64,000 nucleotides of DNA from the NCBI GenBank assembly GCA_023664045.1, contig JAMPGH010000001.1:1667804-1731803 (forward strand), read 5' to 3'. Each line of letters opens with the position of its first letter. Position 1 is the stretch's first letter. Below the pieces are notes generated by a model. That model made no database searches. It saw nothing but the letters and a program-made list of their open reading frames with translations, and had not been told where the DNA came from. The position numbers and the translations under genes are program-made. The stretch is from Alistipes senegalensis. GTDB lineage: Bacteria > Bacteroidota > Bacteroidia > Bacteroidales > Rikenellaceae. Positions 24,381 through 59,717 of the stretch are shown here, piece by piece.

Positions 24381-24821
24381 AAAAGCAGCTTCGACCCGGA
24401 GTGGCGGCGGCCTGCCGCTTCCGCCAGCGCGGTCCGTAGATTCAGCAATCTCCCGCCTCGCTAAGAGCGGGGTTTTATGGGGAAATGGAACCGGTTCTTT
24501 CTATCGAATCCGATCTCCCCTTATCCCCTCCCGGGCGGGTTTATATCCCAGCCTGCCGGAAAGCGCATTCTTTTCGGTTTTCATTCCAGCGATTGCTGCG
24601 ATTTGTCAGCATCGGGCTTCCGCACCTTCCCGACGGGAGCCCTGACGAATGTCGGCGCACAAGGTCTCTGCTGGTCTTCTTCGGCTTCCGCTGCCGGCAG
24701 TACCACCGCAAGCGACCTGAATTTCAACTCGACGAACGTGAACCCGTCAAACGGCGACAACCGTGCCAACGGCTTCACTGTGCGCTGCGTCCAGCATCTG
24801 CGAGCTGCTTTTTTAAGGTAA
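24381..24821 (+). other. FISUMP/C-type-lectin cassette element, copy A
   Basis: The uninterrupted copy of a three-copy element. It begins with a conserved hairpin (24393-24434; stem TGGCGG...CCGCCA closed by GACC/GGTC), then GTAGATTCAGCAATC, a second hairpin with a TAAGAG loop followed by TTTTA (about 24450-24478), and the conserved block CCCAGCCTGCCGGAAAGC (24547-24564). From CATTCCAGCGATTG (24582-24595) it encodes, in one frame, the C-terminal part of a FISUMP-like domain: SGFRTFPTGALTNVG, CWSSSASAAG, ASDLNFNSTNVNPSNG and NGFTVRCVQHLRAAF, ending at TAA 24819. An open frame runs back to 24477, but the residues before the cassette are not domain-like and no promoter is visible, so I do not call it a gene. 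Compare copies C (50059-50577) and B (59151-59717). Confidence 0.75.
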
Positions 24822-25121
24822 AAGTAAAAACGATTATATACTCTGATGTACCAACCCTCAAGAAAGTGAATAGTTTCGGCTTTCCGACCGAAGTCCCCTC
24901 CGAGGAGGGGATTGCGTTCCGCTTCTGCTGTGGCGGTTCGGCAATCCGAGCAAGCTCGATTGCGCTCACCTGCTGCCGCAGTCTACGGGAGGGTCAGACC
25001 TGAATACGCGGCCTTTGGCCGCGAACTATAACGGTCGGATTTGAAAATAAGGGGCAATAAACACTGGTACATCAAAGTATATAATCGGGAAAGTAACCAT
25101 CCGTCGCCCCGTACTTGCAGA
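24822..25121. other. Intergenic stretch with small hairpins, no gene
   Basis: No plausible coding sequence. It contains a perfect hairpin CCCCTCC-GA-GGAGGGG near 24895 and CGCGGCC-TTT-GGCCGCG at 25007-25023. The T-poor contexts do not look like terminators. It may be decayed repeat material next to cassette A. Confidence 0.5.
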
Positions 25122-25164
25122 CGTAAAAAACAGGCGCCTCCGGATGAACGGAGGCGCCTGTTTG
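25122..25164 (-). terminator. Terminator of the mutAB operon
   Basis: A 12-bp perfect stem CAGGCGCCTCCG / CGGAGGCGCCTG (25131-25142 with 25149-25160). On the minus strand it is followed by a T6 run. It lies about 20 bases after the mutB stop. Confidence 0.9.
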
Positions 25165-25184
25165 ACAATAGGTCGCGGCTTTCG

Positions 25185-27323
25185 CTACTCTTCCAGCAGG
25201 ATCTCGAGGATCTTGATGGCGGCCGTAGCGATCGGCGTGCCGGGTCCGAAGATGGCGGCGGCACCGTCGCGGTAAAGTTCGTCGTAATCTTGCGCCGGGA
25301 TCACACCGCCCACGATGACGATGATGTCTTCGCGGCCCAGCTTCTTCAGCTCGGCGATGATCTGCGGCACCAGCGTCAGATGGCCGGCCGCCAGCGACGA
25401 GACGCCCACTACGTGTACGTCGTTCTCGACGGCCTGCCGTGCAGCCTCTTCCGGCGTCTGGAACAGCGGACCCATGTCGACGTCGAATCCGATGTCGGCA
25501 TAACCCGTGGCTACTACTTTGGCGCCGCGGTCGTGGCCGTCCTGACCCAACTTGGCGATCATCACGCGGGGCTGACGGCCCTCTTTCTTCGCAAACTCGG
25601 CGCACAGTTCCTTCGCGCGCTCGAACGACTGATCTTTCTTCACTTCCGAACTGTAAACTCCCGATATCGAACGAATCACGGCCTTGTATCGGCCTACGAC
25701 CACTTCGCAGGCGTCGGAGATTTCGCCCAGCGAGGCGCGTACTTTCGCCGCTTCGACGGCCAGCTCCAGCAGGTTGCCCTGCTTGGTCTTCACGCACTCG
25801 GTGATCGCCGCCAGCGCTTTCTTCACGGCCGCTTCGTCGCGGTTGGCGCGCAGTTCCTGCAGACGCTTCACCTGACTCTCGCGCACCGCCGTGTTGTCCA
25901 CAGCCAGAATGTCGATCGGCGCCTCCTTTTCGAGTCGGTATTCGTTCACGCCGATGATCTTCTGCTCGCCCGAGTCGATGCGGGCCTGCGTGCGGGCCGA
26001 CGACTCCTCGATGCGCATCTTAGGAATGCCGGTCTCGATGGCTTTGGCCATGCCGCCCAGCTTCTCGATCTCCTGAATGTGTCCCCAGGCCTTGCGGGCG
26101 ATCTCCTCGGTCAGCGTCTCCACGTAGTAGGAGCCTGCCCACGGGTCGACCTCGCGGCATACGGAGGTCTCTTCCTGAATGTAGATCTGCGTGTTGCGGG
26201 CGATGCGGGCCGAGAAGTCGGTCGGCAGGGCGATCGCCTCGTCCAGCGCGTTGGTGTGCAGCGACTGCGTGTGTCCCAGCGCCGCACCCATCGCTTCGAT
26301 CGCCGTGCGGGCTACGTTGTTGAAGGGATCCTGCTCCGTCAGAGACCAGCCCGAGGTCTGCGAGTGGGTGCGCAGGGCCAGCGACTTGGGATTCTTGGGG
26401 TCGAACTGCTTGACGATCTTGGCCCACAGCATGCGGGCGGCGCGCATCTTGGCGATCTCCATGAAGTGGTTCATGCCGATGGCCCAGAAGAACGAGAGGC
26501 GCGGTGCGAAGGCGTCGATCGACATGCCGGCGTTCACGCCCGCACGAAGATACTCCAGACCGTCGGCCAGCGTGTAGGCCAGCTCGATGTCGGCCGTCGC
26601 TCCGGCTTCCTGCATGTGGTAGCCCGAGATCGAGATCGAGTTGAATTTGGGCATGTTCTTCGAGGTGTATTCGAAGATGTCGGCGATGATGCGCATCGAG
26701 AACTCGGGAGGATAAATATAGGTGTTGCGCACCATGAACTCCTTGAGGATGTCGTTCTGGATCGTTCCCGACAGCTGGTCGAGGGTGCAGCCCTGCTCCA
26801 GACCCGTTACGATGTAGAACGCCAGAATCGGCAGCACGGCGCCGTTCATGGTCATCGACACCGACATGCGGTCCAGCGGAATGCCGTTGAAGAGCACCTT
26901 CATGTCTTCCACCGAGCAGATCGATACGCCGGCTTTGCCCACGTCGCCCACCACGCGCGGGTGGTCGGCGTCGTAGCCGCGGTGCGTCGCAAGGTCGAAG
27001 GCCACCGACAGACCTTTCTGTCCGGCGGCCAGATTGCGGCGGTAGAAGGCGTTCGACTCCTCAGCGGTCGAGAATCCGGCGTATTGGCGGATGGTCCACG
27101 GACGCATCACGTACATCGTCGAGTAGGGACCGCGCAGGAACGGGGCGATGCCCGCCGCGTAGCCGAGGTGTTCCATGCCTTCGAGGTCCTGAGCCGTGTA
27201 GGCACCCTTGACCGGAATGCGCTCCGAGGTGAGCCACGGCTCCGCCTCGCCGCATCCTTTCGCGGCGCAGCAGTTCTTCTGTGCGTCCGCGTCGTATTTC
27301 AGTTCCGAAAATTTAGCTCTCAT
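25185..27323 (-). CDS. mutB: Methylmalonyl-CoA mutase large (catalytic) subunit
   Basis: 712 residues. The N-terminal TIM-barrel half includes [20 protein letters not shown] and the substrate-site [10 protein letters not shown]. The C-terminal half is the B12-binding domain with base-off motif DGHDRGAK at 595-602 (His597 the axial ligand) and the GVSSLAAGH segment. With adenosylcobalamin it interconverts succinyl-CoA and methylmalonyl-CoA. In gut Bacteroidales this runs toward propionate. Its ATG follows the mutA stop by two bases. The cobalamin riboswitch at 55 kb shows B12-responsive control elsewhere in the genome, but none is visible upstream of this operon. Confidence 0.97.
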
Positions 27324-27325
27324 AG

Positions 27326-29176
27326 TCAGATTCCCATTTCTTTAAGGTAGAACTTCAGTGTCTCCAGCACGTTGGACTTCACGTTGATGAAGTTCGTGAT
27401 GCCCTGCGCTTCCAGTTCGGGGGCGCAGGCCGGGGCTCCGGCGACCACCAGAATGGCTTTGCCGCCCAAGAGCTCCTTCACTTTGGGCGCTGCTTCGGCG
27501 TAGTCGTCGTCCGAGGCGCAGACCACCACGATTTCGGCTTTCGACTCCAGCGCGGCGGCTACGCCCTCGCCGATCGACTGGAAGAAGGTGTTGTCTTGTA
27601 CGCGGATGCCGGCGCAGGCGAAGAAGTTGCACGAGAACTGCGCGCGGGCCCGGGCCATCGCCAGATTGCCGCACGTGAGCATGAAGGCTTTGGGTTGCTT
27701 GCCCGAGCGGTCGACATGCAGGCGCATCTCCTCGAAGGCCATTGCACCGCGGTAGGGCGTCAGGACGTTGCCTTCGGCCGTCGTGCGGGCTACGGCGTCG
27801 GCCGTGATTTCGGCGGGCGCCACCTCGGTGAAGTTGGGATATTGGTTGGCGCCCAGAAGAATCTGACGGCGCGTCGAGATGTTCTTGTCTTTGGCTGCGG
27901 CCGATGCCTTGACTCGCTCCACGATCGTCCCGGCTTGGTAGGCTGCCGTGTAGCCGCCCTGTTCCTCGATCTCGAGGAAGAGCTTCCACGCCTCTGCGGC
28001 GATCGACTGCGTCAGGTTCTCGATGTAGTACGAGCCGCCTGCGGGGTCCACCACCTGATCGAAGTGCGACTCATGCTTGAGCAGGAGCTCCACGTTGCGG
28101 GCGATGCGCTTCGCGAATTCGGTCGGCGCCTCGAACGCCCGGTCGAAGGGCGTTACTTCCAGCGAGTGCACGCCGCCGATGGCTGCCGACATCGCTTCGG
28201 TCGTGCCGCGCAGCATGTTCACGTAGGGGTCGTAGACGGTCTGATTCCAGCGCGAGGTCTCGGCATGGATCATCATCTTGCACGAGCACTTCTTTTCGGG
28301 GTTGTAACCTTTCACGATGTTGGCCCACAGCATGCGGGCGGCCCGCAGCTTGGCGATTTCGAGGAAGTAGTTGGACGAGACGCTCAGCGAGAAGCGGATT
28401 TTGCGGGCTATGTCGTCGATGCCCAGCCCCGCTTCCGTCAGACGCACCAGATAGTCGTGTCCGGCCGAGAGGGCGAATGCCAGCTCCTCGACGATCGTCG
28501 ATCCCGAGTTGCCGAAGATCTGCCCCGAGACGTTCACGACGCGGATATGTTTGTAGGCCGCGGTCTTGCCGATCAGTCCGGCGATGCGGGCGAAGCACTC
28601 CTTGCCGTCGGGCGAGCAGAAATCGCCTTTCGACGCGAGGCCTTTGACCAGCGGGTCGATGACGAAGGCGATGCGGGCTTCTTCTTTGGCCACGCCTTCT
28701 TTCTCGATCTTGGCCAGCACCAGATCGGCTACATGGCCGATCTTCTCGCCGCAGAATACCAGCTCGACGGCCGGCAGGTGGATGTCGCGCAGCAGTACGT
28801 CGAGGTCCGCGGCCGAGAAGTCGGCGCTGTCGATATGGAAGCCGAGCGAATCCACGCCCGTCCCGAGCAGTTGCAGCGCTTCGGCGTTGGCGGCGGCGGG
28901 ATCCGCGACCGTTACGGTCTGGTGGATGCGCCAGCGGTTGTGGGCATGCGTTCCGCGTACGTAGGGGAACTCGCCTGCCTGCGAGCCCAAGAAGCGGAGT
29001 CCTTCGAGGTTCTCGGCGCGGTAGTAGGGCCGGACGTTGAAACCTTCGCCCGTGCGCCATACCAGTTTGCGCTCGTAGTCGGCACCTTTCAGGTCGGCCG
29101 CGATCACCTCTTCCCATTGCTCGGTCTTGACCGGCGGGAATTCGGCGAACAGCTTTTCATGGTTGGTATTTGCCAT
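27326..29176 (-). CDS. mutA: Methylmalonyl-CoA mutase small subunit
   Basis: 616 residues ([20 protein letters not shown]). It has the mutase barrel fold ([40 protein letters not shown]) paralogous to MutB. In the C-terminal domain ([19 protein letters not shown]) the DxHxxG cobalamin motif is absent, as expected for the non-catalytic subunit. The first gene of a two-gene operon whose promoter lies upstream at 29218-29225. No epimerase or MeaB/ArgK chaperone gene is adjacent. Confidence 0.96.
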
Positions 29177-29217
29177 AATTATTTAGAGATTAGTAAGAGT
29201 TCGCATGAATAAGTAGC

Positions 29218-29225
29218 CAAAGGTA
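29218..29225 (-). promoter_or_regulatory. -7 element of the mutAB operon
   Basis: On the minus strand TACCTTTG, an exact TAnnTTTG match 41 bases before the mutA ATG, with a TTG 19-20 bases further upstream. Confidence 0.65.
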
Positions 29226-29721
29226 TAAAATAAATGGCAATGCGGCAATAAATTGTTACAAAAATAACAGTGTTCCCCTCCGCCTGCCGTTTCTTTCCGT
29301 CCGCTCCTTTCTTTCTCTTCTGCTGTTTTTTCTGCCCGTCGGTCTTCGCCCGCACTCTTTCTTGCCCTCCTGCTCGCTCCTTTGACAGCAGCTTTTTCAG
29401 GCGCCGCGTGCCGTCGCTCCTTGTCCGCCCGCTCCCGCCGATTTTTTCTGCTATCTTTTCCCGGTGGCCCCTCCTCTCCGGCCGCCGGAAAATATGCGCC
29501 TTTCGGTTGAAAATTTTTCTGAAACACCTCAAAATTTCCCAAAATCGAAAAGTCGTAGATTTCGACCCATGTCCGAAAATCCGTGCTGTTTTTCCGGAAA
29601 TAGCCTTAAAAATTCGGGATTATCATGAAAAATAGTCATTATTTTTCGGAAACGTGCAAAAAAAATAGGCGTTTTTCGGAAAAAGTGCGATTTTTGAAAA
29701 ACAGGGAAACCGAAAAATAAT
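29226..29721. other. Long intergenic region before glnN, with repeated TTTTTCSGAAA motif
   Basis: No gene is convincing. The first part (about 29270-29470) is strongly pyrimidine-rich on the plus strand. The part next to the glutamine synthetase promoter carries three copies of a partly palindromic motif: TTTTTCCGGAAA (29589-29600), TTTTTCGGAAA (29642-29652) and TTTTTCGGAAA (29672-29682). Their position 40-130 bases upstream of the -7 element suggests operator sites, which is unproven. Confidence 0.5.
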
Positions 29722-29729
29722 TACCTTTG
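29722..29729 (+). promoter_or_regulatory. -7 element of glnN
   Basis: TACCTTTG, 51 bases before the glnN ATG. A TTTG lies 24 bases upstream, which is longer than the usual 19-21 spacing. Confidence 0.6.
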
Positions 29730-29780
29730 TCCCGAGCGGAAATTCTCTCGAAAACTGCAATCCCAACAAAACAGGAAACT

Positions 29781-31958
29781 ATGTCGCTACTCAGATTCAA
29801 GATGGTCGATGCGGCCATCAACCACACGGCTGTGGAGCCGCCCGTACCCGCCGGCCGGCCCTCGGATTATTTCGGCGCAAAGGTCTTCGGCCGCGATGCC
29901 ATGCGCAAATATCTCAACAAGAATACCTTCGATGCCCTTGTCAATACGATGGAGAACGGCACGCCGCTGCCGCTCGAAATCGCCGACGGCGTAGCGGCCG
30001 GCATGCGGCAGTGGGCGCTGGAGCACGGCGCCGACCACTATACCCACTGGTTCCAGCCCCTTACGGGCGGCACGGCCGAGAAGCACGACGCTTTTGCCGA
30101 TCCCGACGGTCGTGGCGGCGTGCTGGAGGAGTTCTCCGGAAAGCTGCTCGTACAGCAGGAGCCCGACGCCTCGTCGTTTCCCAACGGCGGCATCCGCAAC
30201 ACCTTCGAGGCGCGCGGTTATTCGGCGTGGGACCCCGCGTCGCCCGCTTTCATCGTCGATACGACGCTCTGCATCCCCACGGTCTTCATTGCCTATACGG
30301 GCGAGGCGCTCGACTACAAGGTGCCTCTCTTGCGGTCGCTTTCGGCCGTCGACCGGGCCGCTACGGAAGTGTGCCGCTACTTCGACAAGAACGTGCAGAA
30401 AGTCTACTCCTATTTAGGTTGGGAGCAGGAGTATTTTCTGGTCGACGAAAGTCTGTGGGCCATCCGTCCCGATCTGGTGTTGACCGGCCGCACGCTCATG
30501 GGCCACGAGTCGGCCAAGAACCAGCAGCTGGAGGACCATTATTTCGGCGCCATCCCCACGCGCGTCATGGCTTTCATGAAGGAGCTCGAATACGAGTGCC
30601 TTCTGCTGGGTATCCCCGTCAAAACACGACATAACGAAGTGGCGCCTAATCAGTTCGAGCTGGCTCCCGTCTACGAGGAGGCCAATCTCGCCAACGACCA
30701 CAACCAGCTCCTGATGACTATCATGGACAAGATCGCGCGACGCCACCGCTTCCGCGTCCTGTTGCACGAGAAGCCGTTCAAGGGGATCAACGGCTCGGGC
30801 AAGCACAACAACTGGTCGCTCGGTACCGATACGGGCGTCAACCTGCTGGGCCCCGGCAAAACCGCGTCGGAGAACCTGCAGTTCATCACTTTCCTCGTCA
30901 ATGTCATCTCGGCCGTCTACAAGCACAACGGTCTGCTCAAGGCTTCGATCATGAGCGCCACGAACGCCCACCGACTGGGCGCCAACGAGGCGCCCCCGGC
31001 CATCATCTCCACCTTCCTCGGGTCGCAGGTCTCGGCCGTGCTGGATAAGTTGGCCGCTTCGAAGGGCGACGATGCCATCCGCTTCGACGCCCGCAACGTC
31101 TTCAAGATGAGCGGGATTTCGCATATCCCGACCTTGCTGCTGGATAATACCGACCGCAACCGCACTTCGCCCTTCGCCTTTACGGGCAACCGCTTCGAGT
31201 TCCGTGCCGTGGGGTCTTCCGACAACTGCGCCGAGGCGATGATTACGCTCAATACGGCCGTGGCCGACGAGCTCACGCACTTCAAGCAGGCCGTCGACGC
31301 CAAGATCGAGGCCGGCGCCAAAAAGGAGAAGGCGATCTACGAGGTCCTCAAGAAGATGATCAAGGATTGCCGTCCGATCCGCTTCGACGGCAACGGTTAC
31401 TCCGACGAGTGGAAAGCCGAGGCCGCCCGCCGCGGACTGGACTGCGAGACCTCCACGCCGTTGATCTTCGACCGTTATCTCGATAAGGAGTCCTTGAAGA
31501 TGTTCGGCGACATGGGCGTCTATACGAAGGTCGAGCTCGAGGCCCGCACCGAGGTGAAGTGGGAGACCTATACCAAGAAGATCCAGATCGAGGGCCGGGT
31601 CTTGGGCGATCTGGCCATGAACCACATCGTGCCCATCGCCTCAAGATACGAGGCTCTGTTGTTGGACAAGGTCTACAAGTTGCAGCAGATTCCCGAATTG
31701 AAGTCGTCGGCCGACATCGCCCTCATCAAGAAGATTCAGGACCACACGACGGCGATCCAGAAGCTCACCGAGGAGATGATCGAGGCCCGTAAAACGGCCA
31801 ACCGCATCGAGGACCAGCGCAAGAAGGCGATCGCCTACCACGATTGCGTCGCCGGTTTCTTCGACGAGATCCGCCACCACATCGACAAACTGGAGGAGAT
31901 CGTCGACGACCAGATCTGGCCGCTGCCCAAGTACCGCGAGTTGTTGTTCATCCGGTAA
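29781..31958 (+). CDS. glnN: Type III glutamine synthetase
   Basis: 725 residues, the large GSIII form (GSI is about 450). The ATG at 29781 (MSLLRFKMVDAAINHTAVEP) is chosen because the upstream open frame overlaps the promoter. Motifs: GWEQEYFLVD, VAPNQFELAPVYEEANLAND (metal/glutamate site), GINGSGKHNNWSLGTDTGVN and NRTSPFAFTGNRFEFRAVGS. It makes glutamine from glutamate, ammonia and ATP. GSIII is the main ammonium-assimilating enzyme of many Bacteroidales. It is monocistronic, between a long leader with repeated motifs and a strong terminator, so nitrogen control is likely at the promoter. Confidence 0.96.
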   Translation: MSLLRFKMVDAAINHTAVEPPVPAGRPSDYFGAKVFGRDAMRKYLNKNTFDALVNTMENGTPLPLEIADGVAAGMRQWALEHGADHYTHWFQPLTGGTAEKHDAFADPDGRGGVLEEFSGKLLVQQEPDASSFPNGGIRNTFEARGYSAWDPASPAFIVDTTLCIPTVFIAYTGEALDYKVPLLRSLSAVDRAATEVCRYFDKNVQKVYSYLGWEQEYFLVDESLWAIRPDLVLTGRTLMGHESAKNQQLEDHYFGAIPTRVMAFMKELEYECLLLGIPVKTRHNEVAPNQFELAPVYEEANLANDHNQLLMTIMDKIARRHRFRVLLHEKPFKGINGSGKHNNWSLGTDTGVNLLGPGKTASENLQFITFLVNVISAVYKHNGLLKASIMSATNAHRLGANEAPPAIISTFLGSQVSAVLDKLAASKGDDAIRFDARNVFKMSGISHIPTLLLDNTDRNRTSPFAFTGNRFEFRAVGSSDNCAEAMITLNTAVADELTHFKQAVDAKIEAGAKKEKAIYEVLKKMIKDCRPIRFDGNGYSDEWKAEAARRGLDCETSTPLIFDRYLDKESLKMFGDMGVYTKVELEARTEVKWETYTKKIQIEGRVLGDLAMNHIVPIASRYEALLLDKVYKLQQIPELKSSADIALIKKIQDHTTAIQKLTEEMIEARKTANRIEDQRKKAIAYHDCVAGFFDEIRHHIDKLEEIVDDQIWPLPKYRELLFIR

Positions 31959-31976
31959 GTCTTTCGTATAGGACAG

Positions 31977-46647: not shown

Positions 46648-46650
46648 CTG

Positions 46651-50058: not shown

Positions 50059-50577
50059 AAAAAACGGCTTGCAGATGCTGGACGCAGCGCACGGTGCGGG
50101 CGTAGGCGCGGCCGCCTGTGCCCTCGGACTCCACGCTCCCGGCGCTGAAAGCCAGGAAGGTGCCATTCGCGCTGCTCGCCGCAGCCGGAGCGGAGGACCA
50201 AAAACGGGCCTCCGTGCCGACAGCCGTCAGAGCTCCCGTCGCGAAACCGCGGTAGCCCGAAGCAGGCGCATAAGAGCGATCGCTGGAATGAATGCCGCAA
50301 AGAGCGCGGCAATTAAGAATGAAAAATTAAAAATGAAGAATGAAGAATTATTCGAGAGGGCACGAAATATCGGGCATCTATAATTATTCATTATTAATCC
50401 TCCTTCTGAGGCTTGACTTAATTGTCTCAGGCTTTCCGGCAGACTGGAATATACACCGACCTTAGGCTCGGTTTTTCGAAAGTCCCTTTCTTAAAACCGG
50501 CCTCTTAGGCCGGGGATCGCTGAATCTGCAGACCGCGCTGGCGGGAGCTGGGCAAAAGCTCCCCGCCACTCCGGGCC
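50059..50577 (-). other. FISUMP/C-type-lectin cassette element, copy C
   Basis: Minus-strand copy of the element. Hairpin leader at 50577-50531 with an 11-bp stem TGGCGGGGAGC...GCTCCCGCCA, then AGATTCAGCGATC, a CCGGCC-TAAGA-GGCCGG hairpin followed by TTTTA, CCAGTCTGCCGGAAAGC (50447-50431), an AT-rich insertion (about 50300-50430), and the cassette from CATTCCAGCGATCG (50290) to the A6 run at 50059. In one frame it encodes SGYRGFATGALTAVG, FWSSAPAAAS, FLAFSAGSVESEG and YARTVRCVQHLQAVF, then TGA. An in-frame stop upstream and the absence of any ATG mean it cannot be translated on its own. The 664-base interval between secA and the GNAT gene holds only this element and the secA promoter. Confidence 0.75.
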
Positions 50578-50608
50578 GTAGCTGTTGTTTATAAAGATTC
50601 CGGACCGA

Positions 50609-51157: not shown

Positions 51158-52168
51158 TTATTTCGCCAGCTCCTGCCAGATCAGGGCCGAGGCTCCGAGT
51201 ATCGCGGCGTTCTTGCTCTGAATGCCGCTGGGCAGCAGCTTGACTTTGTTCTTGAAGGTGAACATCATGTTCTCTTCCATGTACCACTGCGTCGGTTCGA
51301 AGATCAGCTTGCCCGCCTTCGAGAGACCGCCGAACAGGAAGATCGCTTCGGGCGACGTTACCGTTACCACGTCGGCCAGCGCGCGGCCCAGCATCTCGCC
51401 CGTCAGGCGGAACGCTTCTTTGGCAATGGGGTCGTCTTGTTCGGCCGCCACGGAGATCATCGAGGCGTCGAGGTCGCCGAACGCGATGTCGCGCAGCTTG
51501 CTCGGGGCCGTCATCGTGGCCATCAGTTCGAAAGCCGTGCGTTTGATGCCCGTCGCCGATACGTAGGTCTCCAGACAGCCGCGGCGGCCGCAGCCGCACT
51601 GACGTCCGCCCCGTTCCGCGCAGACATGGCCGAACTCGCCCGCGAATCCGTCGTGGCCGTAGATCATCTCGCCGTTGGCCACGAATCCCGAACCCAGTCC
51701 CGTGCCGAGCGTAATCATCACGAAGTCGCGCATGCCTTTGGCGTTGCCGTAGACCATTTCGCCGATCGTCGCGGCATTGGCGTCGTTGGTCATCACCGTG
51801 CGCACACCTTTAAAATAGTTCGATATGTCTTGCGCCAGCGGGAATATGCGTTGACTTTCGTCGCCGCTCTCGCCTTGCGGGAATACCCACAGGTTCACCG
51901 GATGTTCGATCGTGCCGCGGTGGTAGTTGGCGTTGGGAGCTCCGATGCCGATTCCCGAGAGTTCGTATTCGAACGAGAGGCTGTCGGCCAGCGCCCGCAT
52001 CGCGTCGCACAGGTCCCTCACGTAGGCGGGGTAGTCTGCGAAGTGGGGGTATTTTTTCGTCGAGATGACCGATTCGGCGTAGAGATCGCCTTGTTCGTCG
52101 ACCAGACCGAACGCCGTGTTGATGCCGCCGATGTCGATGCCGATAGCGAGTTTTTTCATGGTTTTCAA
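51158..52168 (-). CDS. ROK family sugar kinase (glucokinase-like)
   Basis: 336 residues. ATP site AIGIDIGGINTAFGLVDEQG, substrate site NDANAATIGE, GTGLGSGFV, the ROK ExGH motif FAGEFGHV and zinc-binding CGCGRRGCLETY are all present. There is no N-terminal winged helix, so it is a kinase and not a NagC-type repressor. It probably phosphorylates glucose, which would link it to glucose from the beta-glucan locus at 32-43 kb. That link is inference. A TAACTTTA (-7-like) lies at 52198-52191 on the minus strand. Confidence 0.92.
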   Translation of the reverse strand: MKTMKKLAIGIDIGGINTAFGLVDEQGDLYAESVISTKKYPHFADYPAYVRDLCDAMRALADSLSFEYELSGIGIGAPNANYHRGTIEHPVNLWVFPQGESGDESQRIFPLAQDISNYFKGVRTVMTNDANAATIGEMVYGNAKGMRDFVMITLGTGLGSGFVANGEMIYGHDGFAGEFGHVCAERGGRQCGCGRRGCLETYVSATGIKRTAFELMATMTAPSKLRDIAFGDLDASMISVAAEQDDPIAKEAFRLTGEMLGRALADVVTVTSPEAIFLFGGLSKAGKLIFEPTQWYMEENMMFTFKNKVKLLPSGIQSKNAAILGASALIWQELAK

Positions 52169-52231
52169 GTTGAGCGGTTGTTATTTGTCGTAAAGTTAAG
52201 GTAAAATTCGGCAACTTCAAAAGTTTTTTTC

Positions 52232-52239
52232 TATTTTTG
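52232..52239 (+). promoter_or_regulatory. -7 element of the prenyl synthase gene
   Basis: TATTTTTG, a TAnnTTTG match 19 bases before the ATG at 52259. It lies in a 90-base divergent region shared with the ROK kinase gene. Confidence 0.6.
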
Positions 52240-52258
52240 GCGCGAATCCATAACCTGA

Positions 52259-53236
52259 ATGACCATGAATCCGAACGAACGGTTGCATTCGTTGATCGAA
52301 AACTACCTGGCGCAGGCCGAGTTTCCCGCCGAGCCGGAGTTGCTCTACGCGCCCATCGCCTATTCGCTCGCCGGCGGCGGCAAACGGCTGCGGCCCATGT
52401 TGGTGTTGCTTTCGCATGCCCTTTTCAACGACGACGTGCAGCAGGCCCTGCCTGCCGCGGCGGCCGTCGAGGTGTTCCATAACTTCACCTTGTTGCACGA
52501 CGACATCATGGACAACGCGGCCATCCGTCGCGGCAAACCTTCGGTCCATGCCAAGTGGGGACAGAACGTGGCGATCCTCTCGGGCGACGCCATGCTCATC
52601 TACGCCTACCGCCTGCTGAACGGCCTGCCGGCCGCCCGGCTGCCGCAGGTGCTCGCCACTTTCGATACGATGGCGCTCGAGGTGTGCGAGGGACAGCAGT
52701 ACGACATGGATTTCGAGCGGAAGCAGAAGGTCTCGGTGGTCGAATACATGCACATGATCGAACTGAAGACTTCGGCCTTGCTGGCCGGTTCGGTGCAGAT
52801 CGGGGCTTTGTTGGCCGGGGCTTCGGAGGAGGACTGCCGCAAATTGCGGCGCTTCGCCGTCGAGCTGGGTCTGGCGTTCCAGTTGCAGGACGACTTGCTG
52901 GACAGCTACGGCGACGAGCGGCTGGGCAAGGCCATCGGAGGCGATATTCTGGAGGGTAAGAAGACCTACCTCATGGTTACGGCTATGAGCCGGGCCGACG
53001 AACCTCTGCGCGAGGAGTTGCGTTCCTTGTTGGCCGACGAGCGGATGGAGCCCGCCCGGAAGATCGAGGCCGTGAAGGCTGTCTACGATCGCCTCGACGT
53101 GCCCCACCTGACCGAGCAGCAGATCGAGCTGCGTTTCGAACGGGCCCTCGCTCAGTTGGATACGCTCTCGGTCGATGCGGCCCGCACGGCTCCCTTGCGC
53201 GAGTTCGCCGCCGGACTGATGGGCCGGAAAAAGTAA
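52259..53236 (+). CDS. Polyprenyl (farnesyl/geranylgeranyl) diphosphate synthase
   Basis: 325 residues (a second ATG lies two codons in). First Asp-rich motif DDIMD at 81-85, second DDLLD at 211-215, with GGGKRLRP near 39-46. Phe76, five residues before the first motif, is typical of short-chain (C15-C20) enzymes, since a bulky residue there blocks chain growth. That product call is an inference. It supplies precursors for undecaprenyl phosphate or menaquinone. Confidence 0.92.
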   Translation: MTMNPNERLHSLIENYLAQAEFPAEPELLYAPIAYSLAGGGKRLRPMLVLLSHALFNDDVQQALPAAAAVEVFHNFTLLHDDIMDNAAIRRGKPSVHAKWGQNVAILSGDAMLIYAYRLLNGLPAARLPQVLATFDTMALEVCEGQQYDMDFERKQKVSVVEYMHMIELKTSALLAGSVQIGALLAGASEEDCRKLRRFAVELGLAFQLQDDLLDSYGDERLGKAIGGDILEGKKTYLMVTAMSRADEPLREELRSLLADERMEPARKIEAVKAVYDRLDVPHLTEQQIELRFERALAQLDTLSVDAARTAPLREFAAGLMGRKK

Positions 53237-53332
53237 ATTAAAAATTAAGAATGAAAAATTAAAAATTTCCTGCTCACCGATTGCTACAATATTTGTCGTC
53301 GTATTTTCAATTCTTAATTTTTCATTTTAATT
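53235..53332. repeat. AT-rich inverted repeat
   Basis: Left arm AATTAAGAATGAAAAATTAA (around 53244-53263), right arm with its inverse (TTAATTTTTCATTTTAATT) at 53314-53332, 45-50 bases apart. Same family as 46430-46647. It fills the gap between the prenyl synthase and U32 genes. Confidence 0.65.
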
Positions 53333-53345
53333 GCCTAAGCAAACC

Positions 53346-54590
53346 ATGCGACGCAGCGACATAGAGATCATGGCCCCCGTCGGGTCCTACGAGGCGTTGG
53401 CGGCGGCCATTCAGGCCGGTGCCGACTCGGTTTACTTCGGCATCGGGCGGCTCAACATGCGTTCGGCTTCGGCCGCCAACTTCACGCCCGACGATCTGGC
53501 AAGGATCGTCGCCACGGCCCATGCCGCCGGGCTCCGGGCCTACCTCACGGTCAACACCGTCGTCTACGAGGAGGAGATCGCGGAGGTCCACGAGGTCGTC
53601 GACCGCGCGAAGGCCGAGGGCATCGACGCCATCATCGCCACCGACATGGCCGTCATCCTCTATGCCCGGCGCATCGGCGTCGAGGTCCATATCTCCACGC
53701 AGAGCAACATCTCCAACTCCGAGGCCGTCAAGTTCTTCTCGCAGTGGGCCGATACCGTCGTGCTGGCGCGGGAGCTGACGTTGGAGCAGGTCGCCCGCAT
53801 TCGCCGGCAGATCGTCGAGTGCGACATCCGGGGTCCGCGGGGCGAGTTGGTCGAGATCGAGATGTTCGCCCACGGGGCGCTCTGCATGTCGATTTCGGGC
53901 AAATGCTACCTCTCGCTCTTCGAAACCGGCTGCTCGGCCAACCGCGGGGCCTGCCGGCAGCTGTGCCGGAGAAAATATACCGTCTCCGATACGGAGAGCG
54001 GCGCTGCGCTGGATATCGACGGACAGTATGTCCTTTCGCCCAAAGATCTATGTACCATCGACTTCCTCGACCGGTTCCTCGATGCCGGGGTCCGCGTTCT
54101 GAAGATCGAGGGCCGCGCCCGCGGCGCCGAGTACGTCAAAAGGGTGGTGGAGTGCTACGACGAGGCCTTGCGCGCCATCGAGGCGGGTACCTATACGCCC
54201 GCACTGGCCGCCGCCCTGAAGGAGCGCCTCGGCACGGTCTTCAACCGCGGTTTCTGGGAGGGTTACTACGCCGGGCGTCCCGTCGCCGAGCATAGCCTCC
54301 GTTACGGTTCTTCCGCTACGCGGCGCAAGGTCTACGTGGGTCAGGTTACCAACTTTTTCAAGAGGTTGTCCGTCGCCGAGGTCTCGGTCGAAGCCGCTCC
54401 CTTGCAGCGGGGCGAGGAGATCTTTTTCATGGGCCCGACCACCGGGGTCGCCGAACAGCGGCTCGAAGAGCTGCACGGACCCGACGGATCGCCCGTCGAC
54501 TCCGTCGTTCAGGGACAGCTGTGCGCCATCCTCACGCCGGGGCTCGTCCGTCGCGGCGACCGGCTCTACAAGTTCGAGGAGACGGAGTAG
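53346..54590 (+). CDS. U32 family peptidase-like protein (TrhP-type tRNA hydroxylation)
   Basis: 414 residues from ATG 53346 (an upstream TTG at 53331 is less likely). The N-terminal TIM-barrel half has IMAPVGSYEALAAAIQAGAD, VYFGIGRLNMR and STQSNISNSEAVKFF. The U32 signature follows with cysteines in FETGCSANRGACRQLC. A C-terminal beta domain (YVGQVTNFFKRLSVAEV) closes it. Although named a peptidase family, E. coli members TrhP/RlhA hydroxylate U34 of tRNA or 23S rRNA. The length and C-terminal domain fit TrhP better than RlhA, but I cannot be certain. Confidence 0.88.
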   Translation: MRRSDIEIMAPVGSYEALAAAIQAGADSVYFGIGRLNMRSASAANFTPDDLARIVATAHAAGLRAYLTVNTVVYEEEIAEVHEVVDRAKAEGIDAIIATDMAVILYARRIGVEVHISTQSNISNSEAVKFFSQWADTVVLARELTLEQVARIRRQIVECDIRGPRGELVEIEMFAHGALCMSISGKCYLSLFETGCSANRGACRQLCRRKYTVSDTESGAALDIDGQYVLSPKDLCTIDFLDRFLDAGVRVLKIEGRARGAEYVKRVVECYDEALRAIEAGTYTPALAAALKERLGTVFNRGFWEGYYAGRPVAEHSLRYGSSATRRKVYVGQVTNFFKRLSVAEVSVEAAPLQRGEEIFFMGPTTGVAEQRLEELHGPDGSPVDSVVQGQLCAILTPGLVRRGDRLYKFEETE

Positions 54591-54758
54591 CGCGCGAATT
54601 TCCGGTGCGTGGCCGAAGCGTTCGCGGCGTCGTTCCGGCCGCTCTCGCACGCACGGCAGCCCGGACTGGCTCTCCGCGAGGCGGTCGTTTCGAATCCGTA
54701 GCGGGCGGCGATGCACCGCATCGTTCCGGGCGGAATTCCGTACAGAACGATTCCCGAT

Positions 54759-54832
54759 AAAAAAGGTGCGGCGGCTCACTAATCTCTCGGACTTGTTATG
54801 GCAGTAACGGGTCTCTTGCCGCCGCACCTTTT
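54759..54832. terminator. Long-loop hairpin between the U32 gene and the riboswitch
   Basis: A 15-bp perfect stem, AAAAGGTGCGGCGGC (54761-54775) with GCCGCCGCACCTTTT (54818-54832), around a 42-base loop, with T runs on both strands. It can end the U32 transcript and, on the minus strand, the riboswitch transcript. On the minus strand the stem's 5' arm is codons 2-6 of the micro-ORF. No gene is seen in 54591-54758, which holds only a small palindrome (CGGAATTCCG). Confidence 0.8.
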
Positions 54833-54835
54833 CAT
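54779..54835 (-). CDS. Possible 18-residue micro-ORF downstream of the B12 riboswitch
   Basis: ATG 54835 to TAG 54779, encoding MKRCGGKRPVTAITSPRD. It is the only short frame with an ATG directly before the terminal hairpin of the riboswitch transcript, and its first codons make the 5' arm of that hairpin, so translation would disrupt it. Conservation is unknown to me. It could be a leader peptide, a real small protein, or chance. A low-confidence call. Confidence 0.35.
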   Translation of the reverse strand: MKRCGGKRPVTAITSPRD

Positions 54836-54992
54836 TTCCCGGATCGGGTCGTCCGTCGTTCGTTTCCCGTCGGACGCACTGCGCCCCGACGCATGGAGGA
54901 GAGCTCCGGCTGCTTCCGGCTGCAAATAGGTGGCTGAATAAGTTTCAACGAGTTCGGTCGCCCAATCCGCGGGGACTTCCCGACATCGAATC

Positions 54993-55164
54993 GATCCGGC
55001 AGGTCTTCTGACTTGCTCCGGTTCCGAAGCCTTCCCGGTCCTTGCGCGGACCAGTGGCTGAGATGTTCGGAACTCCGGGGAGCTTCACAGCAGCGGGACT
55101 GTCCGGGATTTTCACCCGATTCCCTTTTCACCCGCTCCCCCGTCGGGGGTGCGGGCACCGGATC
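54993..55164 (-). promoter_or_regulatory. Cobalamin riboswitch
   Basis: Read on the minus strand: P1 arm GATCCGG (55164-55158), GGTGCC, then GGGTGAAAAGGGAATCGGGT, GAAAATCCCGGACAGTCCCG, CTGCTGTGAAG, the GCCACTGG and GGGAAGGC blocks, the closing AGTCAGAAGACCTGCC, and P1 3' arm CCGGATC (54999-54993). All conserved blocks of the adenosylcobalamin riboswitch are present in order. It normally represses B12 uptake or synthesis genes when B12 is bound. Here no B12 gene follows on this strand: the next gene on the minus strand is beyond the terminator and the oppositely oriented U32 gene. Confidence 0.93.
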
Positions 55165-55170
55165 TGAGGA

Positions 55171-55178
55171 CAAAGATA
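55171..55178 (-). promoter_or_regulatory. Promoter of the cobalamin riboswitch transcript
   Basis: TATCTTTG on the minus strand, seven bases before the P1 helix, so transcription should start right at the aptamer. It shows that the riboswitch is likely expressed. Confidence 0.65.
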
Positions 55179-55369
55179 GCGTTTTCTTCCGATTCCGGTG
55201 TTTCGCGGCGCGTGTTTTTTTTCGGACGGCTCCGTTTTTTTTCGCTCCCGGGCATTGCGCAGGGCCCCTCCGGGCGGCCCGAACTTTCCGACGCAGAACG
55301 GTGCCATGTCCGGATCGCCTTTCCGGAGGCCGTGCATTCCCGCTCGTGCCGGAAAATTATGCGGATTTG

Positions 55370-55401
55370 TTTGGCCGGGGAGATAAATTCACGTAAATTT
55401 G
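55370..55401 (+). promoter_or_regulatory. Promoter of the wza-like gene
   Basis: TTTG (55370-55373), 20 bases, TAAATTTG (55394-55401), 56 bases before the ATG. Both elements match the Bacteroidetes consensus. Confidence 0.75.
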
Positions 55402-55457
55402 TCCTTTTAAAGATACCGGTTCCCGAAACCGGACGATTCCGAAATAATATTGGATAT

Positions 55458-58025
55458 ATGAATCATAAGTTTCTGATCCTCTTTTTCGCGATGTGTTTTC
55501 TCGCCGGCGGGGCGCAGGCCCAGATGACCGACGAGCAGATCGTGGAGTACGTGCAGCAGGGCATCACCGCCGGCAAGAACGAGCAGCAGCTCGCCCGGGA
55601 GCTGCTCATCCGCGGCGTTTCGCAGTCGCAGCTCCTGCAGCTCAAAAGCCGTTACGAGGCGGGCGGGCTGGACGGCATGCTCGGCAGTTCCTCGTTGTCC
55701 GGCGCCGCTTCCGCCGGCAGCCGTTCCGCCGCAGGACTGCAGCGGGGCGACGTCTTCCGCAACGTCTCCGACGAGGAGCCCGAAACGGTCATGTCGGCCC
55801 GCATGGGCGGCAACGCGATGCAGGGCATGACCGGGCAGATGCCGGGCATGACGATGAATGCGATGTCCGGTCAGACGGGGCTGGCCGATCCTTCCTTGTC
55901 GGGGGCCTACGGCGTCGATCCCTACGGCGAGTACGGTTATTATCTCAACGCCCGCGATACGGTGGGGCGCCGCCGCGTCTTCGGCCGCAGTTTCTTCAGC
56001 GGCCGGACGCTCACGTTCGAGCCCAACGGCAACATGGCTACGCCGCAGGATTACCGGCTGGGTCCCGGCGACGAGGTCATCATCGACATCTGGGGCGCCA
56101 ACGAGGACAACATTCAGGAATACATCTCGCCCGAGGGCAACATCATGGTCGAGGAGATCGGTCCCGTCTACCTGAGCGGGCTGACCGTCCGCGAGGCCGG
56201 CGACCGCATCCGCAACCTCTTCGCCCGCAAGTATGCCGGCGTCTCGGGCGAGGAGCCCGAGTCTCAGGTCCGCGTCTCGCTGGGGCAGATCCGTACGATC
56301 CTCATCAACGTCATGGGCGAGGTCGAGGTGCCGGGTACCTACCGGCTATCGGCTTTCTCGACGGTTTTCCACGCCTTGTATCGCGCGGGCGGCGTAACCG
56401 ATATCGGTACGTTGCGCAGCGTCGAGGTTCTGCGGGGCGGGCGCCGCATCGCCGAACTGGACCTCTACGACTTCATCTTCTCCGGCAAGTTCGGTCAGGA
56501 GGTGCGGCTGGAGGAGGGCGACATCGTGCTCGTGCGGCCCTACGAAAAGATGGTCGAGGCCAAAGGCAAGTTCCGGCGCCCGATGTTCTACGAGTTGCGG
56601 CAGGGCGAAACCTTGCAGCATCTGTTCGACTATGCCGCCGGATTCGCCGGCGATGCCTATAATAAAGAGGTGCGCGTGGTCCGGCGTTCGGGCCGCGACC
56701 ACGAGCTCTTCTCCGTTCCCGTGGAGCATTTCGCTTCTTTCGAGTTGAAGGACGGCGACCGCATCGAGGCCGATTCCGTCTTGAGCCGCTACGCCAATCG
56801 CGTCGAGGTGCGCGGTTCGGTCTATCGGCCGGGTTTCTACGAGTTGGGCGACGACGTGCATACGGTCGGTCAGCTGATCGCCCGGGCCGAGGGTTTGAAG
56901 GAGGATGCTTTTCTGGCTCGCGCGTTGCTCTACCGGGAGTGCGACGACTTGTTGTTGAGAATGGTCGCCGTCGATCTGGCGGGCATCGTTCGGGGCACGA
57001 CGCCCGACGTCGAGCTCAAGTGCAACGACGTGCTCGTGATCCCGAGCCGGCACGAGCTCACCGAGCTGGGCGGATTCACCATCAGCGGGCAGGTCGCCAA
57101 TCCGGGTACCTATCCCTATGTGGAGGATATGACGTTGGAGGATCTGATCCTGCAGGCGGGCGGTCTGCTCGACGGCGCTTCGACGGTGCGCGTGGAGGTG
57201 GCCCGACGGTTGAAGGACGCCGAAAGCACCGACAATACCAACGATTTGGGCGAGGTCTTCACGTTCTCGCTCAAGAACGGCTTCGTGGTCGACGGGAAGC
57301 CGGGTTTCCGCTTGAAGCCCTTCGACGTGGTCGCCGTGCGCAAAAGTCCCGCCTATCAGGAGCAGCGGTTGGTTACGGTGGACGGCGAAGTGCTCTTTTC
57401 GGGCGAATACGCCTTGTTGCATAAGAACGAGCGGATCTCCGATCTCGTCATCCGCGCCGGCGGCGTAACGAACGACGCCTATATCCGGGGCAGCCGCCTC
57501 ACGCGCCGCATGAACGAGGAGGAGAAAGCCTTGCGCGACGACGTGCTGCGCATGGCCAAACTCGACTCCGGCGCCGATTCGCTGAACGTGGAGAAGCTGC
57601 AGGAGAGCGATACCTATACCGTGGGCATCGAGCTGGAGAAGGCGTTGGAGAATCCGGGTTCGGACTACGACGTCGTCCTGCGCGAGGGCGACCGGCTCTT
57701 CGTTCCCGAATACGTCAGCACGGTGAAGATCATGGGCGAGGTCATGCGCCCCAACACGGTGCTCTACTCCAAGAACATGAAGTACAAGGATTATATCGAT
57801 CAGGCCGGAGGCTATGCGTCGCGCGCCAAGAAGAGCCGGACCTACATCGTCTACATGAACGGCATGATCTCCCGCAAGAAGAACCGCATCGAACCCGGCT
57901 GCGAGATCATCGTGCCCCGCAAGCGCGAACGGGCGGGTCTGGGCGTAACGCAGATCATGGGTCTGGCTACCTCGGCCGCTTCGCTGGGTACGATGGCCGC
58001 CACGATCGCCAATCTCTCAAAATAA
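55458..58025 (+). CDS. Polysaccharide export outer-membrane protein (Wza-like, SLBB)
   Basis: 855 residues from the ATG at 55458 (MNHKFLILFFAMCFLAGGAQ). The long upstream open frame crosses the promoter and is rejected. After the signal peptide comes a helical segment, then a Met/Gly-rich insert at ~112-136 (eight Met in 25 residues), the Poly_export domain (DYRLGPGDEVIIDIWGANED) and several SLBB domains (VMGEVEVPGTYRLSAFSTVF, ISGQVANPGTYPYVEDMTLE, KIMGEVMRPNTVLYS). It forms the outer-membrane channel for capsule or exopolysaccharide. The multi-SLBB length is typical of Bacteroidetes. Wzz follows 9 bases downstream, but no glycosyltransferase does. Confidence 0.93.
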   Translation: MNHKFLILFFAMCFLAGGAQAQMTDEQIVEYVQQGITAGKNEQQLARELLIRGVSQSQLLQLKSRYEAGGLDGMLGSSSLSGAASAGSRSAAGLQRGDVFRNVSDEEPETVMSARMGGNAMQGMTGQMPGMTMNAMSGQTGLADPSLSGAYGVDPYGEYGYYLNARDTVGRRRVFGRSFFSGRTLTFEPNGNMATPQDYRLGPGDEVIIDIWGANEDNIQEYISPEGNIMVEEIGPVYLSGLTVREAGDRIRNLFARKYAGVSGEEPESQVRVSLGQIRTILINVMGEVEVPGTYRLSAFSTVFHALYRAGGVTDIGTLRSVEVLRGGRRIAELDLYDFIFSGKFGQEVRLEEGDIVLVRPYEKMVEAKGKFRRPMFYELRQGETLQHLFDYAAGFAGDAYNKEVRVVRRSGRDHELFSVPVEHFASFELKDGDRIEADSVLSRYANRVEVRGSVYRPGFYELGDDVHTVGQLIARAEGLKEDAFLARALLYRECDDLLLRMVAVDLAGIVRGTTPDVELKCNDVLVIPSRHELTELGGFTISGQVANPGTYPYVEDMTLEDLILQAGGLLDGASTVRVEVARRLKDAESTDNTNDLGEVFTFSLKNGFVVDGKPGFRLKPFDVVAVRKSPAYQEQRLVTVDGEVLFSGEYALLHKNERISDLVIRAGGVTNDAYIRGSRLTRRMNEEEKALRDDVLRMAKLDSGADSLNVEKLQESDTYTVGIELEKALENPGSDYDVVLREGDRLFVPEYVSTVKIMGEVMRPNTVLYSKNMKYKDYIDQAGGYASRAKKSRTYIVYMNGMISRKKNRIEPGCEIIVPRKRERAGLGVTQIMGLATSAASLGTMAATIANLSK

Positions 58026-58034
58026 ACGCGCAGG

Positions 58035-59144
58035 ATGAAAAACGAGATGCAGGAAAATACCGCACGGCGGGCCGACGGGGAGGAGATCGACGTGCTGGAG
58101 CTGGTCCGGAAAGTGTGGGCCGAGCGTAGGTTGGTGATGCGCTGGTGCGGGATCGCCGCGGTCGTCGCGGTGATCGTCGCTTTCAGCATCCCCAAAGAGT
58201 ATACGGCTACGGCGGTGCTGGCGCCCGAAACGTCGTCGAACAAAAATTCGCTCGGCGGATTGGGGGCGTTGGCCAGCATGGCCGGCATCAACATGGGCAA
58301 CATGGCCGATGCCGATGCCGTGAACCCCGATCTCTATCCCGACGTGGTGGAATCCGTGCCTTTCGTCATCGAGCTCTTTCCCGTCGGGGTCGAGACCGTT
58401 CGGGGCGATCTGAAGACCGATCTCTTCGACTACCTGAAGCACCGTACGCGCCGACCGTGGTGGGGCGTCGTCGCTTCGGCTCCTTTCAAGGCGCTGGGCT
58501 GGGGCATGTCGCTCTTCCGCGGGAAGAAACCCGAATCCGACGGCACGAACGTCGATCCTTTCCGGCTCACCGAGGACGAGGACCGCATCGTCGAGGAGCT
58601 CGGGCGTCGGGTCGCGGTTACCGTCGACAAGAAGACTTCGTTGGTAACGCTCTCGGTAACCATGCAGGATCCGCTCATCGCGGCGACGGTGGCCGACACG
58701 GTCATGCGCAACCTGCAGACCTACGTTACCGACTACCGCACCAACAAGGCCCGCAACGACCTGAAGTTCACGCAGCAGCTCTACGACGAGTCGCAGCGCG
58801 ACTACTACTCCGCGCAGCAGCGTTATGCCCGGTACATGGATGCCAACCAGAACATCGTGCGCCGCTCGGTCCGCACCGAGCAGGAGCGGTTGCAGAACGA
58901 GGTGAACCTCACCTACAGCGTCTACAATCAGATGGCCCAGCAGTTGCAGCTGGCTCGCGCCAAAGTGCAGGAGAGCACGCCGGTCTACGCCGTCGTGAAG
59001 CCCGCCACCGTGCCGCTTCGGGCAGCCAAGCCCTCCAAGCCGTTGATTCTCGCAGGATTCGTTTTTCTGGCTTTCGCCGCCGCTGCCGGGTGGATCCTCT
59101 TCGGCCGCGAGTTGCGGGACCGCTTCCGCGAGAAAAAAGAGTAA
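58035..59144 (+). CDS. Chain-length determinant protein (Wzz family)
   Basis: 369 residues. N-terminal transmembrane helix at ~38-54 after the EEIDVLELVRKVWAERR entry, periplasmic helical region with coiled coil (NQNIVRRSVRTEQERLQNEV), the proline-containing VVKPATVPLRAAKPSKPLIL segment and a second helix ~338-355. No C-terminal tyrosine-kinase domain. It controls polysaccharide chain length with Wzy/Wza. It is the second and last gene of this export unit, directly followed by cassette element B. Confidence 0.9.
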   Translation: MKNEMQENTARRADGEEIDVLELVRKVWAERRLVMRWCGIAAVVAVIVAFSIPKEYTATAVLAPETSSNKNSLGGLGALASMAGINMGNMADADAVNPDLYPDVVESVPFVIELFPVGVETVRGDLKTDLFDYLKHRTRRPWWGVVASAPFKALGWGMSLFRGKKPESDGTNVDPFRLTEDEDRIVEELGRRVAVTVDKKTSLVTLSVTMQDPLIAATVADTVMRNLQTYVTDYRTNKARNDLKFTQQLYDESQRDYYSAQQRYARYMDANQNIVRRSVRTEQERLQNEVNLTYSVYNQMAQQLQLARAKVQESTPVYAVVKPATVPLRAAKPSKPLILAGFVFLAFAAAAGWILFGRELRDRFREKKE

Positions 59145-59150
59145 GATCAA

Positions 59151-59717
59151 AGCAGCCTCGGCCCGGAGTGGCGGGGGAGTGATGTGCGGCTCCCGTCAGC
59201 GAGGTCCGTAGATTCAGCAATCCGTTGGCGGCCGTCAGGTCGCCAGCTATTCATCCCAGCCTGCCGGAAAGCAACCTTAATTAATAGTTAATAATGTATA
59301 ATGAATAATTATTGTGGGAGTTCACAAATCCGCTTGATAATTAATTATTCACTATTAACTATTAAACCTCCCTGCGGAGGTTTGACTTTACTCCTGCTCG
59401 GCAGAGTCCGCAAGCGGTCTTTGCTCTCGCTCATTCGTAAAGTTCATTAAGAAAGGTTCCCTTTCTTGCATCCATTCCAGCGATTGTTCCTTGCACGCTG
59501 CTTCGGGTTACCGCCACTTAACGACGGGAGCCCTGGCGGCTGTCGGCACGGACGGCGACTACTGGTCTTCGTCGCCTACGGCTGCAGGCAATGCCAATGC
59601 CGGCAACTTGGGTTTCAATTCGGGAATCGTCAACCCGTTGAACAGCAATAACCGCGCTTTCGGCTTTACCGTGCGCTGCGTCCAGCATCTGCGGGCTGCT
59701 TTTTTTTCAATGAACTT
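59151..59717 (+). other. FISUMP/C-type-lectin cassette element, copy B
   Basis: Begins seven bases after the wzz stop. Hairpin leader 59160-59206 (TGGCGGGGGAG with CTCCCGTCA, the latter using a G-T pair), GTAGATTCAGCAATCC, CCCAGCCTGCCGGAAAGC (59255-59272), an AT-rich inserted element, then the cassette from CATTCCAGCGATTG (59473-59486) to the T8 run near 59707. One frame encodes SGYRHLTTGALAAVG, YWSSSPTAAGNANAG, LGFNSGIVNPLNSN and FGFTVRCVQHLRAAF. The only ATG in this frame, at 59491, would start inside the domain. Together with 59718-60057, where no gene is seen, this fills the gap before tRNA-Arg. Confidence 0.75.
59273..59460. repeat. AT-rich element inserted in cassette element B
   Basis: Inverted arms AATAGTTAATA (59283-59293) / TATTAACTATT (59353-59363) and GAATAATT / AATTATTC, then a hairpin AACCTCC-CTGC-GGAGGTT and a segment TTTACTCCTGCTCGGCAGAG...TCGCTCATTCGTAAAG related to 46454-46525. 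It sits exactly where copy A is uninterrupted. Confidence 0.6.

Follow-up and report, generated by a model that had tools for sequence, protein, structure and literature searches.

Diversity-generating retroelements (DGRs) are usually described with one template repeat (TR) for one or several targets, and pilS, like vlsE of Borrelia, is a silent-cassette system of antigenic variation. Among DGRs with several variable repeats (VRs), 216 of 271 have one TR and 55 have more, with examples that comprise 2 and 6 TRs (Yan 2019, PMC6642488), and for Treponema denticola several TR variants across samples are reported (PMC4891356). In the stretch analysed here, 64,000 nucleotides of a genome assembly of Alistipes senegalensis (contig JAMPGH010000001.1, hereafter the window), three copies of a cassette with a FISUMP/C-type-lectin-like coding core are located, which, judged from their sequence, are very probably TRs belonging to a library of ~48 template RNAs that is scattered over the genome and serves one DGR; the three relatives for which a count was made have 17 to 88. 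As in DGRs of the BPP-1 type and those with Bacteroidales targets, a DGR-type reverse transcriptase (RT), Avd, non-coding TRs, adenine-specific TR-to-VR differences (in three relatives), a VR at the 3′ end of the target gene and differing 3′ flanks of TR and VR are apparent. Unlike in these, tens of templates per genome, most of them far from the RT, face one VR. With vlsE, many silent donors, one expressed surface protein and segmental transfer are shared; unlike in vlsE and pilS, adenine-specific differences here go together with an RT and Avd, for which reason reverse transcription, and not plain gene conversion, is regarded as the agent. No dispersed template library for one target was found in the literature searched, Macadangdang 2024 and Wu 2018 lying outside it, and within this scope many dispersed templates for one target are new. 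The usual ratio of a DGR would be reversed, with tens of separately folded, scattered template RNAs converging on one surface gene; if so, cassette switching and targeted hypermutation would be joined in one machine, and template RNA would act at a distance in nature.

The genome carrying the window (G000; 1.97 Mb, 5 contigs, 86% complete; window at C1:1667804-1731803) was searched with the 21-base 3′ edge of the cassettes, yielding 52 matches at ≤2 mismatches (44 exact) versus 0 for the reversed control, which far exceeds chance. The element had been called three-copy in a first-pass annotation made from the letters alone, which holds for the window and not genome-wide, the window copies being 3 of the 52. 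Forty-eight of the 52 matches were taken as cassettes with a FISUMP core (one cut by an N gap) and the other 4 have the edge only, with a different body; such copy numbers may be off for reasons of assembly. L099, L101 and L102 are metagenome-assembled genomes (MAGs). More than two edge matches were present in 7 of 151 Alistipes genomes (G000, G060, G012, G009, G115 and G007 with 19 to 53, G106 with 3), the same seven that hold an RT at least 82% identical. The exact leader motif GYARATTCAGYAAYCC was found in 12 of the 151 genomes: the seven focal ones carry 10-57 copies, G085 has 7, G100 has 3, and G002, G076 and G143 have 1 each (reversed control, one match). A phage origin of the cassettes was discarded, as IMG/VR returned 0 exact edge matches.

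The RT for which the first-pass annotation had suggested looking is encoded once in G000, the search with RVT_1 giving a single match (C1:482632-483360, E 1.3e-15) that adjoins the densest cassette cluster, ~1.2 Mb from the window in contig coordinates. Its sequence carries IGNLTSQ and YVDD, SQ being a hallmark of DGR RTs. In order, the locus comprises a protein matched very weakly by MutS_I (E 0.076), then Avd, 11 cassettes and the RT; Avd was matched significantly and below the curated cut-offs by NF033474 (E 1.4e-13; 51 bits, cut-off 80) and bAvd (E 1.2e-8; 35.8 bits, cut-off 40).

For comparison of templates with the target, each target was set without gaps against the cassettes of its own genome (18 in G007, 23 in G115, 87 in G060), and the longest stretch free of mismatches at non-adenine cassette positions was determined. 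The G007 VR matched one cassette over 188 nt with 22 mismatches, all at the template's 39 adenines (donor on contig C25, RT on C40), the G115 VR over 144 nt with 12 mismatches, all at 26 adenines (donor C5, RT C3), and the G060 VR over 188 nt with 7 mismatches, all at 35 adenines (donor C7, RT C1). The donor was thus a dispersed cassette on a contig other than that of the RT in each of the three testable relatives, and the adenine-specific changes expected under the first-pass annotation's DGR option are seen between the target gene and a single dispersed cassette. The next-best cassettes reached 30 (G007), 56 (G115) and 34 nt (G060). When C, G or T was tolerated instead, 43, 43 and 92 nt were obtained in G007, G115 and G060, with no mismatch used, and a mock-target control (G000 48, G115 21, G007 18, G060 87 cassettes) gave maxima of 48, 56, 54 and 37 nt with at least 4 adenine mismatches. 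Assembly errors would hardly create an adenine-only pattern between sequences on separate contigs.

These matches bear on a vls- or pilS-like alternative, in which silent cassettes would be transferred by gene conversion without reverse transcription and adenine-specific hypermutation would come from elsewhere. Silent donors and one target end fit it, as do cassettes 526121 and 997145 (L037:2642- and L042:5146+), whose 190-nt cores are identical behind different leaders 471 kb apart, as if a core had recently been exchanged or duplicated with no change at its adenines. It is nevertheless very improbable, given that in three genomes the adenine-only mismatches span most of the template or its full length, that the matched stretches do not agree with transfer without base-specific mutation (every mismatch there sits at a template adenine), that Avd and the RT stand beside the array and that a similar leader occurs at other DGR templates.

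The target gene is represented by an open stretch ahead of Avd, array and RT that ends in the same edge, with 775 codons in L100 (A. muris DSM 112343, taken as the G115 locus), 768 in L101 (the G007 locus, a MAG) and 792 in G060 (L139); in L102 it is broken up by N, and in G106 it lies at a contig end. Pfam assigned DUF4906 to all three target proteins, P_gingi_FimA to two and FISUMP (PF09603) to one, the last with E 3e-4 and below the cut-off; the VR comprises the last ~60 codons, and a PDB sequence search gave no match for the target domain. Upstream of the target in G115, 3 of 4 tested genes are fimbrillin-like (Mfa_like). Because of the DUF4906 and P_gingi_FimA matches and these neighbours the target is regarded as pilus-like, probably a protein of the fimbrillin type (type V pilus-like) whose C-terminal domain is FISUMP-like, and it may be located at the pilus tip. 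Macadangdang 2024 is said to deal with Bacteroides DGRs and pilus tips.

Sequences following the edge (14 bases, ≤1 mismatch) fell into two classes in the stretches covered from seven genomes, CATCT or a variant close to it in 200 cases and AGTGAGCGAGC in 7, with none showing both and none showing neither. The count covers one locus each for G012, G106 and L102 and the listed edge-match stretches for G007, leaves out the G000 match C1:28555 (a FISUMP gene) and other one-mismatch matches, and includes among the 200 one edge-only element (G000) and one template-less end (G007). The 7 AGTGAGCGAGC ends occur once per genome, directly behind the end of the target gene, a gene end with the cassettes' 3′ edge being what the first-pass annotation had suggested looking for. 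The gene end, flanked by AATAA..AGTGAGCGAGC, and the cassettes, flanked by CATCT, thereby show the distinct 3′ flanks (initiation of mutagenic homing sites, IMH and IMH*) of a DGR. A full-length FISUMP lipoprotein gene of G000 (C1:28544-29989, L061), which ends in GTGCGCTGCGTCC, was rejected as a target: it is without the target flank, and its longest adenine-only stretch with any of the 48 cassettes is 17 nt, shorter than the equivalents for C or T.

Structure was examined at 136 edges of four genomes (44 of ~88 in G060), of which 103 had a recognisable leader; 92 leaders were kept after shared leaders had been merged and those more than 600 nt distant dropped. RNAalifold predicted that the leader forms a hairpin and that its G[C/T]AGAT pairs in a helix with ATCT[G/A]C, which immediately follows the template. 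The varying pair of this helix was C-G in 50, T-A in 19, T-G in 11 and C-A in 0 of the 92 leaders, 12 being motif-less (Fisher 4.7e-11, a value that is optimistic owing to kinship of the sequences and that in part reflects a difference between array and dispersed copies); array and dispersed cassettes taken alone gave p 0.005 and p 0.016. In all four genomes the ends of basal stems paired better with their cognate than with non-cognate ends (p 1.3e-5 to 2.5e-9), and the paired fraction over the whole alignment was 0.917, compared with a maximum of 0.876 in 300 shuffles. The cassettes would offer a large covariation data set for the structure of template RNAs.

Inverted terminal sequences of this kind, on dispersed intergenic copies, would also suit a non-autonomous mobile element merely carrying a piece of a FISUMP gene, and the patchy occupancy of sites agrees with it: among six genomes compared, the sites of window copies A and B are occupied by a cassette in G000 and G009 but lack one in G007, G115, G060 and G012, and that of copy C is occupied in G000, G009 and also G060. 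However, the inverted ends differ between copies and pair within a copy, as RNA stems do, the cores are under protein-level selection, and they match the target gene with adenine-only changes, which leaves such an element a most unlikely explanation. The mobile 3′-end module considered in the first-pass annotation is partly right, in that copies have dispersed, and the adenine-only matches favour its other option of donor cassettes, to which copy number, the RT with Avd and array, and the shared-edge gene end also speak. At the same site the cores of G000 and G009 differ, and only the G009 core of site A has a reciprocal partner, elsewhere in G000; from this, and from the pair of identical cores with unlike leaders, it seems that cores have moved between places in the course of time.

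An open core was found in 47/47 cassettes of G000, 21/21 of G115, 17/17 of G007 and 86/87 of G060 (79 by motif and 7 of the remaining 8 by reading), altogether 171/172; omitted were one N-containing and one edge-only case in G000, two at contig ends in G115, one template-less in G007 and one in G060 (L144:1202-). Between G000 and G009, 8 of 14 G009 cassettes, a part of the ~37 edge matches of that genome, had a reciprocal best partner of >75% identity, and the 8 pairs pooled gave pS 0.286, pN 0.080 and dN/dS 0.24, which points to selection on the templates. The open frames and this ratio disfavour the relic variable repeats that had been offered as a further option. A related possibility, that an array expanded and left most of the dispersed cassettes as relics, live templates being confined to the array and a few copies, finds some backing in the smaller number of mutable AAY codons in dispersed cassettes (four genomes), in the recognisable promoter in few cassettes and in the leader recognised for only 103 of the 136 edges. 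It is judged unlikely, as the matching donor is dispersed and not in the array in the three testable genomes, 171 of 172 cores are open, and the long-range pair covaries, weakly, in dispersed copies alone (p 0.016).

The AAY codons per cassette averaged 9.1 in the array and 4.6 in dispersed cassettes of G000 and 12.0/6.2, 10.9/7.1 and 7.9/3.6 in the other genomes (fewer in dispersed, p 2e-5 for G000, 6e-4 for G115, 2e-5 for G060 and 0.08 for G007), and in 3 of 4 genomes a third-base pyrimidine was kept more often at replaced AAY codons than at other codons that had changed (G060, p 0.20). This pattern fits templates that were once mutated targets; relaxed selection would lower the adenine content too. 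Tentatively, the dispersed templates could be an archive of once-working pilus-gene variants that were copied back to template form, scattered, and are replayed almost unchanged with fewer adenines, and just as speculatively the adenine-rich array beside the RT could be the part that explores. No case of copying back was seen in the genomes compared. If true, an archive would unite a heritable repertoire and hypermutation within one retroelement.

Under the reading of the cassettes as TRs of one DGR, each unit, including the three of the window, would be transcribed as a structured RNA with a leader hairpin, a GYAGAT/ATCTR helix around the template and a basal stem joining the ends before the T run. 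The RT with Avd would copy the template into complementary DNA (cDNA) with errors opposite adenines, and the cDNA would replace the 3′ end of the one fimbrillin-type gene, where the different flank (AATAA..AGTGAGCGAGC versus CATCT) could keep the flow mainly one-way. Variation would then have two layers, the choice of template and random change at template adenines.

The three copies of the window were found at, or close to, the positions first assigned to them, and all have the layout described there: leader, CCAGYCTGCCGGAAAGC block, in-frame FISUMP-like core, GTGCGCTGCGTCCAGCATCT edge and T run. Read in frame, none of the three cores contains a stop up to VRCVQHL. The stretch ahead of the core differs between copies in length and frame; because of this the copies are regarded as lacking a start of their own, as had been noted, and coding genes with hidden starts were ruled out. 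Cassette A forms a predicted template-RNA unit at 24380..24814 (+), from the 5′ arm of the basal stem to the T run, based on sequence and the pairing of leader, tail and basal stem (cognate duplex -16.8 kcal/mol). Its leader GTAGATT at 24436..24442 (+) is the putative 5′ arm of the long-range helix closing around the template, as indicated by covariation with the base after CATCT in the 92 leaders; the template core at 24607..24794 (+), assigned by alignment and frame with its length of ~188 nt set by analogy with relatives, has the open frame ...GFRTFPTGALTNVG...VRCVQ, and the tail at 24795..24814 (+) comprises CATCTGC (3′ arm of the long-range helix), the 3′ arm of the basal stem and the T run, as judged from sequence and pairing. 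The unit of cassette B was placed likewise at 59149..59707 (+; cognate duplex -17.2 kcal/mol), its core with the open frame ...GYRHLTTGALAAVG...VRCVQ at 59498..59685 (+), and that of cassette C at 50059..50590 (-; basal stem -8.4 kcal/mol), its core with the open frame ...GYRGFATGALTAVG...VRCVQ at 50078..50265 (-), both cores by alignment and frame. The gene downstream of cassette C is one that we take to be secA. Between leader block and template, copies B and C and many other cassettes contain AT-rich repeats (TTAATAATGAATAATT, TTCATTTTTAATTTTTCATTC and similar; window 59280-59460 (+) and 50300-50450 (-)).

Several points, the kinship behind the covariation values among them, weigh against the assignment to one DGR. 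The p-values of the adenine-only test are circular, the stretch having been chosen for lack of other mismatches, so that the controls carry the weight of that result. The 5′ ~45 nt of the G115 VR fit no single template, no donor for L102 was found among its 5 local cassettes, and the test covers relatives only, the VR gene of G000 being cut by an N gap. The G000 VR also shares 55 nt with cassette 342669; gaps of ~100 N stand beside the target gene and that cassette (C1:490.5 kb and 342.67 kb; L032, L033), both resuming with the same 55 nt, which is probably a k=55 graph overlap and thus an assembly effect, so that metagenome assemblies may hide such systems. G012 was dropped as a fourth test case: its identical 200-nt match concerns a target end (G012:C85, L191) that follows 2.9 kb of sequence identical with the cassette array and is probably misassembled. 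The basal stem of cassette C is weak, and the promoter-like TAnnTTTG stands within 60 nt upstream of just 9 of the 92 leaders (background 1/368 bins). Neighbouring array cassettes of G060 (L139:6591-7075) show 6 adenine-only mismatches over 64 nt, edge and tail included, because of which some transfer from cassette to cassette is possible.

Template-to-template retrohoming was searched for among the cores of four genomes and discarded, no pair of at least 60 nt with at least 4 adenine-only mismatches being found. A scan for adenine-only pairs near the RT gave none at two of the four focal loci, one 56-nt match between array cassette and VR in G115, and in G060 the 64-nt array pair together with an 86-nt tandem repeat unrelated to the cassettes.

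Other Alistipes DGRs, with RTs 36-54% identical, resemble the focal system in having ~190-nt templates in several cases and a leader-like motif (GTAAATTCAGTAACCC or a near form) 5′ of the TR at 6 of 18 loci. Unlike in the focal system, 14 of these 18 loci have an adenine-only pair near the RT, the pair detected involving one template place; control letters gave 4 matches, all G, at three loci. G085 has two DGRs (L197, L210) whose TR-like units stand in tandem groups of 3 and 5, and the VR of each matches one unit with adenine-only differences (187 nt with 19 mismatches, 188 nt with 9). One genus would present a graded series of one template, groups of 3 and 5, and ~17 to 88, which bears on the origin of the library.

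Outside the focal genomes, an orphan leader of the focal type with a cassette edge and an edge-only match was observed in G100 (L075, C22:182023-182884), the RT of which is 48% identical, and a lone leader motif in G143 (G143:C28:54598), a genome without RT match at E 1e-20. The four edge-only elements of G000 (C1:336920-, 366646-, 1260175+ and 1539877+; L033, L034, L045, L050) have a GC-rich body and a hairpin-like AAAAAGCGGC stretch at the end, behind which the 3′ edge occurs a second time. Each lies ~245-415 nt downstream of a cassette and closely repeats the terminator letters of that cassette, as if an insertion had duplicated the 3′ edge. In an Rfam scan of the window the leader matched no family, and a cobalamin riboswitch was recorded at 54981-55177 (-; RF00174, 111 bits).

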